In this document: positions 3,101 to 6,535 of the stretch, one piece after another | Position numbering within the stretch: the first letter of the stretch is position 1 | Layout: each line of letters begins with the position of its first letter | Assembly: GCA_937139485.1 (NCBI GenBank) | Contig: CAKZQD010000016.1 | Coordinates: 1-42,038, forward strand | Source of the DNA: an uncultured Bacteroidota bacterium | Lineage (GTDB): Bacteria > Bacteroidota > Bacteroidia > Chitinophagales > UBA8649 | Length of the DNA: 42,038 nt | Direction of reading: 5' to 3' | Position numbers and translations under genes: made by a program | Notes under the pieces: generated by a model | What the model saw: the letters and a program-made list of their open reading frames with translations, nothing else | The model's database searches: none | Told to the model about the DNA's origin: nothing

Positions 3101-4609
3101 TAGGGCTTGCAGATTTTTCTAATCATAAAATTTAAGATTAAAAAAAATATTTTTGATTTTTTAGAGTAAAATATTGTTTTTCATCTAAGAAATAGTTTTT
3201 TAAAAAAAACATAGTTATATATTGCTATGCGATATGTTTTAATTAGATATTTTGCTATAAAGCATAAAAAAATAGCAGACTTGTCCGCTATTTTTAATAA
3301 ACTTACAATATTCATTACAAAAAAAATAGCTGCAATCCAGCTTTCTGATGTTGCTTTTGTCTTCGCTCTAATTTTTTTTAGACCATATTTATTTTTTGCT
3401 TATCCAAACTTTTCACCTATTAGATTTCTTTGGTTTTGTTCCTTTTTCTTTTTTCTTTTTTTGATAAGCTGTCTGTTCTATTTTTTTTCAGTATTCCTAG
3501 TGGAGATATTACTATTCTAATTTCCTTTTCTTTGTGCTATTTTCTATTTTTTCGGTTTAGATATAATTTGTCCGCTAACAATAATTCTGGGAAAAGACCA
3601 TAAGTTTTCTTGTACATTTCTAGTTGTAAAACCATATCTGTTGTCTCATTAAAATTGTCCCAACTTATACGTTCCACTCTACTCATTCCACCACTTTCGC
3701 TAGCACTTATTTTTGCTCCAAACTCTACAGAATGACAATCTTTTCCTCTTATTATTGAACGAATATATGGCTGGCAAATGTTTACTATTCTGTCTGCCGT
3801 GCTATGCTTTTTTGTGTCATACAGCTCCTTTTGCTGTCTGTACAATTCTTGTATTATCCAATACCGGTTTTGTGTTTTTTTGTTTAGCAGAAATACATAT
3901 CTATTTTCATAATGTTTAAACATTCCTATTGAAACCTTTTGAGGTGCTTCTGTTTTTAAAACGTCTAATAAATTTTCTATACTTCCAATGTTTCGTTTTA
4001 AGTAATTGAGTTGTTCCTTATAAATTTTCTAATCTTTTTTTTGTTTTTCTTTCTTTTTTTTGAAAAGTTTAAACTTAGTTTTTTTGCATCTCGTCTATAG
4101 GTTCTTGGTTTTTTGCTTAGTTTGCTTTGTGAATAGAGTGTATCTATTATTTTTTCAGTTTCTACTTTTGCTTTACTTAATAAACCAGCATCGGTTGGGT
4201 AAGATATATTCTAATCTGCTACACTAGCATCAATTTTTAGTGTGCCTTTTTTTTGTTTTAAATTGCTTACTTGTTGCTCTTTTTTTGATTTAAAATATCG
4301 GCTTTTTTTATTATTTCTTCATTCCAACTATCAAAAGCTATTGCGCCCATTCTTCTGCGAATATCTACAAATACTGTGTGGCAAAATGGCTTCTTTTTTT
4401 TGAAAACTTTTTAAACCACAAAAGTATTGCAAGTAAATATTTTCGCTTATCATATCTACTGTTCCTCTGTCATCAAGTCCAAAGTTTATTCATCTAAATT
4501 ACATATATATATATATGCACTTTGCAGTCCTTTTTTTCAACTTGCAAACAATTAATTTATTGATAAACAATGCTTTACACTTTATTTATAAGAAAAACTG
4601 CAAGCCCTA
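3101..4609 (-). mobile_element. decayed IS5/IS1182-like insertion sequence
   Basis: Imperfect terminal inverted repeats: TAGGGCTTGCAGATTTTTCT (3101-3120) versus AGAAAAACTGCAAGCCCTA (4591-4609), sharing TAGGGCTTGCAG. They enclose transposase remnants on the minus strand. Confidence 0.8.
3230..4500 (-). pseudogene. DDE transposase (IS5/IS1182-like) with frameshifts and internal stops
   Basis: Minus-strand fragments in several frames: FGLDDRGTVDMISENIYLQYFCGLKSFQ; FVDIRRRMGAIAFDSWNEEIIKKADIL; GTLKIDASVAD*NISYPTDAGLLSKAKVETEKIIDTLY; KKPRTYRRDAKKLSLNFSKKRKKNKK; IRGKDCHSVEFGAKISAS...RVERISWDNFNETTDM...YGLFPELLLADKLYLNRKNRK*; GEKFG*AKNKYGLKKIRAKTKATSESWIAAIFFVMNI. Confidence 0.88.
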
Positions 4610-4914
4610 CTTAAGTATTTATGTGGGTAAAGTTCTCTGTATGCTTGTAAAACCGTATCTAATTCGAAAGACTCAAAATCTATACGCTCGTCTTCAAAAT
4701 TTATGTTAACAATAGCTTCTTTCTCAATACCACTTTTCAAAAGCTTATGCATTGTTTGCATCAATAAATAGGTTTTGACAGACCTTCGAACACCAGTAAG
4801 ACTTATTATTTTTGTACAATGAATAGGCAAATCAATATCACGAAACTTTATTACACTAAAATCTCTATTCTGATTATCTATAATTATCTCTTGAACTATT
4901 TTCTTCCGTTTCAC
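4610..4914 (-). pseudogene. N-terminal fragment of COG1373-like AAA/DUF4143-type ATPase, truncated by the IS
   Basis: KRKKIVQEIIIDNQNRDFSVIKFRDIDLPIHCTKIISLTGVRRSVKTYLLMQTMHKLLKSGIEKEAIVNINFEDERIDFESFELDTVLQAYRELYPHKYLS, then reads into the IS end. Likely GTG start at 4914. Confidence 0.75.
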
Positions 4915-4934
4915 AAGGTCAAAATACAAATATT

Positions 4935-4949
4935 TCCTTATTAAAAGGA
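4935..4949. promoter_or_regulatory. palindromic operator-like site A1
   Basis: TCCTTATTAAAAGGA, just upstream of the truncated ATPase gene. Confidence 0.55.
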
Positions 4950-4998
4950 TAAACACATAACATCTATCACTTTTAAAGAGCCATTTTCACAATAACTG

Positions 4999-5013
4999 TC
5001 CTTTTTAAAAGGA
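4999..5013. promoter_or_regulatory. palindromic operator-like site A3
   Basis: TCCTTTTTAAAAGGA, exactly 64 bp (2 x 32) from 4935. A degenerate copy (TCACTTTTAAAGAGC) lies at the midpoint, 4967. Confidence 0.55.
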
Positions 5014-5199
5014 AAATTTATACAAATAAATATAAATTGAATTTAATTGGCATAAATTTACACTACAAAGCACCTAAAAACAGATCACATCTCAAAAATT
5101 ATCAATTTTTACATCAATATTAATTTTTGACCGAAAAATAACTCGTCTTAATTCATTGTAAATCAACAAAATACAAAAATAAAAAGTATTTTCAGATAA

Positions 5200-5228
5200 T
5201 TTAGGAATCTAAATCCTAAAATATCGAC
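5200..5228 (+). repeat. operator-like repeat unit B1
   Basis: TTTAGGA-ATCTAAA-TCCTAAA followed by ATATCGAC. Confidence 0.75.
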
Positions 5229-5231
5229 TTT

Positions 5232-5260
5232 TTTAGGAATTGTAATCCTAAAATATCGAC
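5232..5260 (+). repeat. operator-like repeat unit B2
   Basis: TTTAGGA-ATTGTAA-TCCTAAA followed by ATATCGAC, exactly 32 bp after B1. A third half-site TATAGGA lies at 5264-5270, again 32 bp on. Confidence 0.75.
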
Positions 5261-5278
5261 AATTATAGGAAAATGTTG

Positions 5279-5286
5279 TATATTTG
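5279..5286 (+). promoter_or_regulatory. Bacteroidota -7 promoter element candidate
   Basis: TATATTTG matches TAnnTTTG, 20 bp upstream of ATG 5306. Confidence 0.5.
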
Positions 5287-5305
5287 TGCTAGTAAACCAG
5301 CAAAT

Positions 5306-6535
5306 ATGCAGTACAGAACACTATATAGCAAGCTAGAAAAACACCTCCAGCACAAAACATACACCATTTTAACAGGAGCAAGACAAGTAGGAAAAACATC
5401 ACTACTCAAAAAACTGTACTATAAATTAAAAGATGAAAGTGAAATAGTACATTTCATTAATTTAGAAAGTAAAGAAATACTTAAACTACTAGATGAAAGA
5501 CCAGACAATGTTTTTAATCTAATAAACATTATTCCAAAAAAAAGACTTGAAGGAAAAACCGATAAAAGAATCTATTTTTTAATAGACGAAATACAGTATT
5601 TAAAAGATCCGACTAATTTTTTGAAATATCTGTATGATGAATACGAATACAACGTAAAAATAATAGCTACGGGAAGTAGTGCGTTTTATATAGATAATAA
5701 ATTTAGCGACTCGCTGGCTGGTAGAAAAAGAATTTTTCAGTTATATCCACTTTCATTTAATGAGTTTTTAGAATTTAAAAATCATCAAGAAATAAATGAA
5801 GAAATTGGAAATATAGTTAGTGAGCCAAACTATCATTCACAATATGGTTTAAATATAAACAAACTATTTAACGAATATTTAGTATTTGGTGGCTACCCAG
5901 AAATAGTACTTGAAAAAGATTTTGAAGAAAAAAAATGGCTCCTAAATGAACTCAAAAATTCTTACTTGAGGAAAGATATTACAGATGCAGGAATAGAAAA
6001 AGAGCATAAATTTATGATGATGGTAAAAATATATGCCAGTCAGATTGGAAATATTGTAAACAAAAACGAAATTGCAAATACAATAGGTTTGGATAACAAA
6101 ACAGTAGAAAAATATTCGCACGTTTTAGAAAAAAGTTTTCATATAGACTTACTAAAACCATATTATAGAAATGTAAGAAAAGAACTTACTAAAATGCCAA
6201 AATTATTTTTTAATGATGTGGGTTTGCGAAATGCAATTTTAAATAAATTTGAATTTCCATTTTATAGAGACGATAAAGGAGCACTTTTAGAAAACTTTAT
6301 TTATAACCAACTACGGCACAAACACGACCCATACAGTATAAAATACTGGCGTACAACAGAGCAAAACGAAGTAGATTTTGTAATAGAAGAAAGCTTTGAA
6401 CAAGGCTATGCGCTTGAAGTAAAATGGAAATGCGAGAATTTTTCAAATAAGAAATACAAAAAATTTGAAAACGCATATCCAAATTTTCCATTATCTTGTT
6501 TAGATAGTACCAATAAAGAGATTTTGATTTATTGA
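5306..6535 (+). CDS. COG1373-type AAA ATPase with DUF4143-like C-terminal region
   Basis: Walker A GARQVGKTSLL, Walker B IYFLIDEIQYL, GSSAFYI, LAGRKRIFQLYPLSFNEF, C-terminal YWRTTEQNEVDFVIEE. In-frame ATG 5306 preferred over 5273 because 5273 lies upstream of the -7-like element. Confidence 0.9.
   Translation: MQYRTLYSKLEKHLQHKTYTILTGARQVGKTSLLKKLYYKLKDESEIVHFINLESKEILKLLDERPDNVFNLINIIPKKRLEGKTDKRIYFLIDEIQYLKDPTNFLKYLYDEYEYNVKIIATGSSAFYIDNKFSDSLAGRKRIFQLYPLSFNEFLEFKNHQEINEEIGNIVSEPNYHSQYGLNINKLFNEYLVFGGYPEIVLEKDFEEKKWLLNELKNSYLRKDITDAGIEKEHKFMMMVKIYASQIGNIVNKNEIANTIGLDNKTVEKYSHVLEKSFHIDLLKPYYRNVRKELTKMPKLFFNDVGLRNAILNKFEFPFYRDDKGALLENFIYNQLRHKHDPYSIKYWRTTEQNEVDFVIEESFEQGYALEVKWKCENFSNKKYKKFENAYPNFPLSCLDSTNKEILIY

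Follow-up and report, generated by a model that had tools for sequence, protein, structure and literature searches.

The window, the whole 42,038-nucleotide stretch at positions 1 to 42,038 of contig CAKZQD010000016.1 (assembly GCA_937139485.1) from an uncultured Bacteroidota bacterium, carries two neighboring genes for COG1373-type ATPases, one decayed (locus 1) and one intact (locus 2), with palindromic DNA sites in front of both. Comparison with relatives makes it very probable that each COG1373/DUF4143 ATPase is a sequence-specific DNA binder with a private operator at its own promoter, which it occupies as dimers or as an array and through which it represses itself. The sites, their generality across the family, their privacy to single genes, their co-inheritance with the protein and a code that relates residues to bases emerge directly from the computation. 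These patterns argue strongly that the ATPase binds its own operator, and the position of the sites suggests that it represses its own promoter. Binding is probably dimeric on operators made of a single dyad (class B below), and probably takes the form of an array with 16 base pairs (bp) per protomer on operators with dyads every 32 bp (class A). The sequence-only reading of this DNA had proposed autoregulatory, possibly co-operative operators, each recognized in its own version by its own ATPase, and this proposal gains support from enrichment, spacing and covariation.

The intact gene and its operator are arranged as follows.

5194-5226, no strand: operator dyad 1, centered on 5210, with half-sites 5194-5209 and 5211-5226
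5226-5258, no strand: operator dyad 2, centered on 5242, exactly 32 bp after dyad 1
5264-5270, no strand: TATAGGA, left half-site of a third dyad (center 5274), 32 bp after dyad 2
5279-5286, plus strand: TATATTTG, a match to TAnnTTTG, the -7 promoter element of Bacteroidota, some 20 bases 5' of the start codon
5306-6535, plus strand: intact COG1373-type ATPase gene, 409 amino acids, with AAA_14 ATPase, winged helix-turn-helix (wHTH) and DUF4143 domains; PADLOC PDC-S01
6062-6154, plus strand: wHTH codons (residues 253-283), placed by AlphaFold2 helices and by covariation with operator positions 5, 6 and 7
6092-6100, plus strand: codons of the recognition-helix residues D263, N264 and K265
6356-6361, plus strand: codons of T351 and E352 in the turn of the DUF4143 beta-hairpin, which covary with operator positions 14 and 16

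All sequences quoted in the sequence-only reading for the two loci are present where it placed them, and the phasing it described for locus 2, with a half-site at 5264 upstream of TATATTTG, is borne out: the direct repeat scores 25 at a lag of 32 bp, a value that none of 1000 dinucleotide shuffles reaches (p 0.001). The dyad TTTAGGA-N7-TCCTAAA starts at 5200 and at 5232, the only two places where it occurs exactly in the 3.0-Mb genome; with two mismatches allowed, the genome holds 35 matches vs 48 for a reversed control pattern, so that the degenerate form is not commoner than its control. Both dyads have T4 C5 C6 in the inner block of each arm and a G at position 16 of the right arm (5226 and 5258, respectively), while in the third dyad the promoter takes the place of the right half. 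A second dyad type (TCCTAAAATATC / GATATTTTAGGA) lies at 5226, between the neighboring AGGA-N7-TCCT dyads. An inverted phase, in which TCCTAAAATATC/GATATTTTAGGA forms the repeat unit, was considered and rejected, as the residue-by-base code equates the AGGA-N7-TCCT dyad with the dyads of other clades. The ATG at 5306 is most plausibly the start of the gene. A TAnnTTTG box lies approximately 10-25 bases 5' of the start codon in the window (5279-5306) and in many relatives, and its nearness to the start codon implies that the leaders of these mRNAs are very short or absent. Seven orthologues at 60-69% identity come from other Bacteroidota groups, and six of them have repeats with a 32-bp pitch whose letters are related to those of the window without being identical; in four orthologues (L150, L152, L153 and L154) alternating dyads stand 16 bp apart.

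Relatives of the family were collected before a profile was built, and the first set comprises 143 non-redundant COG1373/DUF4143 genes, with 276 genes from the same loci as controls and a score of at least 10 defining a strong palindrome. The anticipated enrichment upstream of homologues is clear, since the best palindrome reaches this score in 54.5% of the ATPase genes vs 8.7% of the controls and 1.4% of shuffles, and in an independent set 68% of 107 genes carry a strong promoter palindrome. Centers fall within -30 to -10 of the start codon for 47 of 78 palindromes at ATPase genes vs 3 of 24 at controls, and TAnnTTTG boxes are concentrated near the start codon across the family. The spacing histogram peaks at 32 and 22 bp: over -160 to 0 the strongest autocorrelation lag in the 143-gene set is 32 bp, and among 39 strong direct repeats a pitch of 32 bp accounts for 20 and one of 22-23 bp for 11, those of the controls being scattered. 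A palindromic or repeated site at the gene's own promoter is therefore present beyond chance. The same architectures are found on viral contigs and on plasmids of Spirochaetota, Pseudomonadota and one archaeon (Treponema, Methanomethylovorans, rhizobial and Azotobacter plasmids); a scan of viral contigs with alignment A2 gave no matches.

Three classes of operator can be distinguished. Class A, the dyad arrays at 32 bp, is confined to one large clade that includes the window gene; class B is a single dyad of 34-48 bp, centered at about -20 and often extending into the start codon; class C consists of direct repeats at 22-23 bp. Spacings of 22 and 32 bp are near two and three helical turns, and on the protein tree the classes require 12 changes, vs at least 32 with shuffled labels. 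A 32-bp period for all loci, as the sequence-only reading had it, is too narrow, since other clades use a single 34-48-bp dyad or repeats at 22/23 or 33 bp. The 33-bp repeats belong to a group of longer DUF4143 ATPases (427-453 amino acids) on viral contigs (L195, L197, L199, L205), and iteron-like 22-bp direct repeats such as TTCAATTGGTC lie upstream of PDC-S01 genes on alphaproteobacterial plasmids (L160, L167, L168, L169). In one GC-rich host (L018) a 23-bp repeat has letters unlike the others. In five single-dyad operators (L095, L131, L120, L164, L183) the start codon is part of the palindrome, its ATG being matched by a CAT on the opposite arm, and two loci (L096, L133) each hold at least two ATPase genes, from different subfamilies, in the space of a few kilobases.

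The window's genome contains six DUF4143 ATPase genes, each with a different promoter palindrome or palindrome array; among them are a triplet of GCTAAAAGTTAnGCTTTTTAGC-type units with a 32-bp pitch, a pair of TGACnnAATTAACnTTAATnnnGTCA units with the same pitch and one 17+7+17 palindrome. In addition to the window gene, two paralogues (L002 and L004) were searched genome-wide: L002 has its sites at only three places and L004 at only two, with a spacing of 32 bp in both, and in each case they are upstream of the gene itself. A regulon with sites shared across the genome is rejected because the sites of the three genes searched occur only at their own gene. Among 148 genes, operator similarity rises with protein identity. 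Of the pairs with less than 40% protein identity, 7-11% reach a similarity of at least 12; the share is 42% at 50-60% and 90% at 70-80%, whereas the 95-bp flank at -200 to -105 shows similarity in at most 1% of pairs up to 60% protein identity.

Aligned on the dyad center, class B operators read AAT, a variable inner block (positions 4-7), AAATTT and a variable outer block (positions 12-17). Regression of operator similarity on domain identity singled out no domain as the DNA reader; position-wise covariation settled which parts of the ATPase track the DNA letters. In 69 genes, residues 352 and 263-265 are the protein columns that share most mutual information with the operator letters. For single-dyad operators, the six strongest of 7030 pairs of operator position and residue are (16,352), (5,265), (6,265), (5,263), (7,264) and (14,351), with Z from 17.2 to 6.6, all at the recognition helix of the helix-turn-helix (HTH; 263-265) or at the DUF4143 hairpin turn beside the nuclease motif (351-352). 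The first set yielded the rules N352 to T16, D352 to G16, K265 to CC and P265 to TT, which were fixed before being applied to the 107 new genes, none more than 80% identical to the first set (median nearest identity 54%); 63 of their operators could be tested. Position 16 is correctly predicted from residue 352 in 53 of 64 cases (83%; 27% expected), and residue 265 predicts position 5 in 107 of 120 (89%; 39% expected) and position 6 in 115 of 120 (96%; 56% expected), each at p 2e-4. Pooled over 121 operators and both arms, residue 352 gives N to T in 42/42, D to G in 28/28, K to C in 10/10 and A to A in 32/38, and residue 265 gives K to C5 in 81/86, P to T5 in 43/44 and N to G5 in 25/30. An independent-pairs test, on a tree built without the columns 263-265/351-352, finds switches that follow the predicted direction with almost no opposite cases (same/opposite 9.1/0 for 265{P,V,T,I} with T6, 9.9/0 for 352{N,S,Q} with T16 and 5.8/0 for D352 with G16). 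The covariation of motif and protein suggested earlier is thus found both as residue-by-base pairs and as out-of-sample prediction, and in the single-dyad class the DNA-binding residues of the ATPase appear to determine the operator letters. The window protein, with D263 N264 K265, fits the code in having T4 C5 C6 in all five half-sites, and the letters of dyad 1 agree with the K265 to C5C6 rule.

The window ATPase matches AAA_14 (1.4e-30) and DUF4143 (1.7e-39) in Pfam and the PADLOC PDC-S01 profile (E 4e-100), and no NCBIfam family covers it. Walker A and B motifs of AAA_14 are present, with G24, G29, K30 and D94 invariant, and the C-terminal DUF4143 domain bears a PD-(D/E)XK-like signature in which E355 and D357 are invariant and E371 and K373 nearly so. 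Structural assignments are based on an AlphaFold2 model from 36 sequences (predicted local distance difference test, pLDDT, 89; predicted TM-score 0.88); a model from 8 close sequences (pLDDT 56) was set aside. In the model, helices 253-260 and 264-276 form an HTH whose recognition helix is 264-276, and residues 351-352 form the turn between strands 345-349 and 355-363, directly before E355 and D357. The top Foldseek match is 2QBY, Cdc6/Orc1 bound to origin DNA (E 1e-7), at low TM-scores (0.31-0.33) and 12% identity. Other near solved folds are STAND ATPases including Avs4 and Avs5; in a comparison of sequences, 2FNA and 2QEN are the nearest structures of stand-alone archaeal ATPases.

These observations are consistent with a mechanism in which each half-site, some 16-18 bp long, would be occupied by one protomer. 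The recognition helix would read the inner block at positions 4-7 from the dyad center with its N-terminal end (263-265), and the DUF4143 hairpin turn (351-352) would read the outer block at positions 14-16, one helical turn further out, with two protomers per dyad. In the window's clade, dyads recur every 32 bp, or three turns, so that protomers would alternate between two dyad kinds every 16 bp and could form a continuous array; the 16-bp offset between the two dyad kinds in L150 and L152 suggests the same 16 bp per protomer. In another clade, the protein would meet direct repeats every 22 bp, or two turns. The sites lie on or directly beside the promoter and the start codon, and those of the three genes searched are absent from the rest of the genome, which makes autorepression of transcription the most likely effect of the bound ATPase; this would keep a poised, low-level pool that ATP state, a partner or infection may release or change.

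Several points weigh against this account. The choice of repression over activation is drawn from site position only, the genome-wide search took in three of the six paralogues, and start codons in the gene sets were assigned by rule. By the thresholds used, 40 of 163 genes have no clear site, while several genes scored as having none bear low-scoring half-sites. The sequences are related and hence not independent, an effect that the independent-pairs and out-of-sample tests lessen without abolishing; once corrected for kinship, some single rules depend on just 4-6 independent switches, and A352 with A16 alone is not significant in the independent-pairs test. Moreover, the code was derived from class B, and for the 32-bp class positions 5-6 alone were compared, by eye.

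The sites could instead be a working substrate on which the ATPase-nuclease assembles, or which it marks, nicks or cuts, as part of a replication, partition or self-targeting element, with repression incidental. We regard this as somewhat unlikely. It would explain why the nearest fold is Orc1/Cdc6 on origin DNA, why 22-bp direct repeats look iteron-like, why the DNA-reading turn 351-352 comes within 3-6 residues of E355/D357 in a PD-(D/E)XK motif that looks intact, and why plasmids carry many copies. Unlike origins, however, DUF4143 matches number as many as 12 in one genome, every copy that was examined has a promoter site of its own, and the sites are tight to the promoter and start codon, the three searched being found nowhere else. 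Related to this is the more doubtful idea that PDC-S01 proteins are self-addressed nucleases: the hairpin with the PD-(D/E)XK active site would read the outer block, and the array bound at the gene would stand guard there, primed but autoinhibited. The nuclease would be released or set off once an invader disturbed this DNA or the array was lost, and operator divergence would stop cross-silencing among the copies in one genome.

Binding by a separate host regulator is very improbable. Promoter-near palindromes usually have dedicated repressors, but here the site differs for each paralogue within one genome, its letters track the ATPase's own residues by the same rules across bacterial families, and no consistent regulator gene lies beside the ATPase in the annotated plasmid regions examined. 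The extension of many single-dyad sites into the start codon would suit RNA hairpins in the 5' leader, acting in translation control or attenuation. This option, to which we likewise give very little credence, was rejected because arm mismatches lack an excess of G.T over A.C (16 vs 12) and because the TAnnTTTG boxes are downstream of the 22/32-bp arrays; hairpins do not arise from direct-repeat arrays, and the letters covary with the HTH recognition helix. AT-rich DNA yields many weak palindromes and locus 1 alone reaches only p 0.01, yet chance repeats or transcription terminators are hardly conceivable as the explanation and are refuted for the family, for shuffles and neighboring genes score far lower and out-of-sample prediction succeeds; chance could still account for the middle copy at locus 1.

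That locus comprises the following features.

4582-4914, minus strand (4582-4956 in a wider delimitation): what is left of a second ATPase gene, which probably starts at the GTG at 4914; Pfam AAA_14 1e-7
4935-5013, no strand: palindromes TCCTTATTAAAAGGA (4935-4949), a degenerate copy (4967-4981) and TCCTTTTTAAAAGGA (4999-5013), with a pitch of 32/64 bp

Locus 1 was described as truncated and locus 2 as intact, correctly so: the former gene is dead, a 124-residue remnant in which Walker A has changed from GVRRSGKT to GVRRSVKT (Gly to Val), as against the 409-residue gene of locus 2, and its promoter palindromes are still present. Homologues at 38-42% identity retain GVRRSGKT. The claimed phasing holds in part and is weaker than at locus 2: the 64-bp direct repeat reaches p 0.01, the palindromes considered without it fall short of significance (p 0.4), and the degenerate copy in the middle, matching one flanking copy at 10/15 positions and the other at 9/15, is insufficient by itself. 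Locus 1 is probably part of the same phenomenon, because its distant intact relatives have AAGAAAG/CTTTCTT palindromes 5' of the start codon, one with a 32-bp repeat. A degenerate stretch resembling a decayed transposase (3537-4520, minus strand) adjoins the truncated gene and holds a 128-residue open reading frame without a Pfam match.

Several known systems share parts of this arrangement. Orc1/Cdc6 initiator genes adjoin the repeats they recognize, with paralogue-specific boxes that are repeated at origins. As in the 2QBY structure, solved on DNA, the window ATPase combines an AAA+ ATPase with a winged helix, but it lacks a close sequence relation (12% identity, TM about 0.3) and adds a nuclease-like DUF4143 domain that also appears to read DNA, and its family has sites at the promoter and many copies per genome. 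In plasmid Rep/iteron systems, the promoter of the self-repressing initiator carries either an inverted repeat or direct repeats of roughly 22 bp in phase with the helix. Some ATPase operators share this design, whereas no relation to Rep folds was found and the ATPase genes studied are mostly chromosomal and multi-copy. The STAND/NLR-type Avs4 and Avs5 are structural neighbors of the ATPase core; the ATPase lacks sensor repeats, and Avs proteins have no known DNA-operator binding. BrxR/CapW repressors of defense islands are separate WYL-domain proteins whose palindromic operators control a defense gene, whereas PDC-S01 seems to be effector and operator reader in one.

The window gene belongs to PDC-S01, an ATPase fused to a PD-(D/E)XK domain that is reported to rank as the fourth most common defense across prokaryotes and is unvalidated, with 9,986 archaeal and 29,494 bacterial instances (PMC12988326), and that is the most frequent locus in the rumen (PMC13356809); an anti-phage role is accordingly a candidate function. 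In the open-licence literature without preprints, the accounts of PDC-S01 include no promoter operators, and no description of its operators, DNA specificity or autoregulation was found, the family names being mentioned incidentally and promoter palindromes of the family not at all. The suggestion that the architecture is perhaps undescribed agrees with this, and an earlier account elsewhere is possible. PDC-S01 is reportedly among the commonest predicted defense genes in bacteria and archaea (more than 39,000 instances, PMC12988326). The private operator, the two-contact residue-to-base code and the phased array point to the DNA, the residues and the promoter at which direct tests can be made, and the code indicates which of the copies that share a genome or arrive by plasmid might regulate one another.
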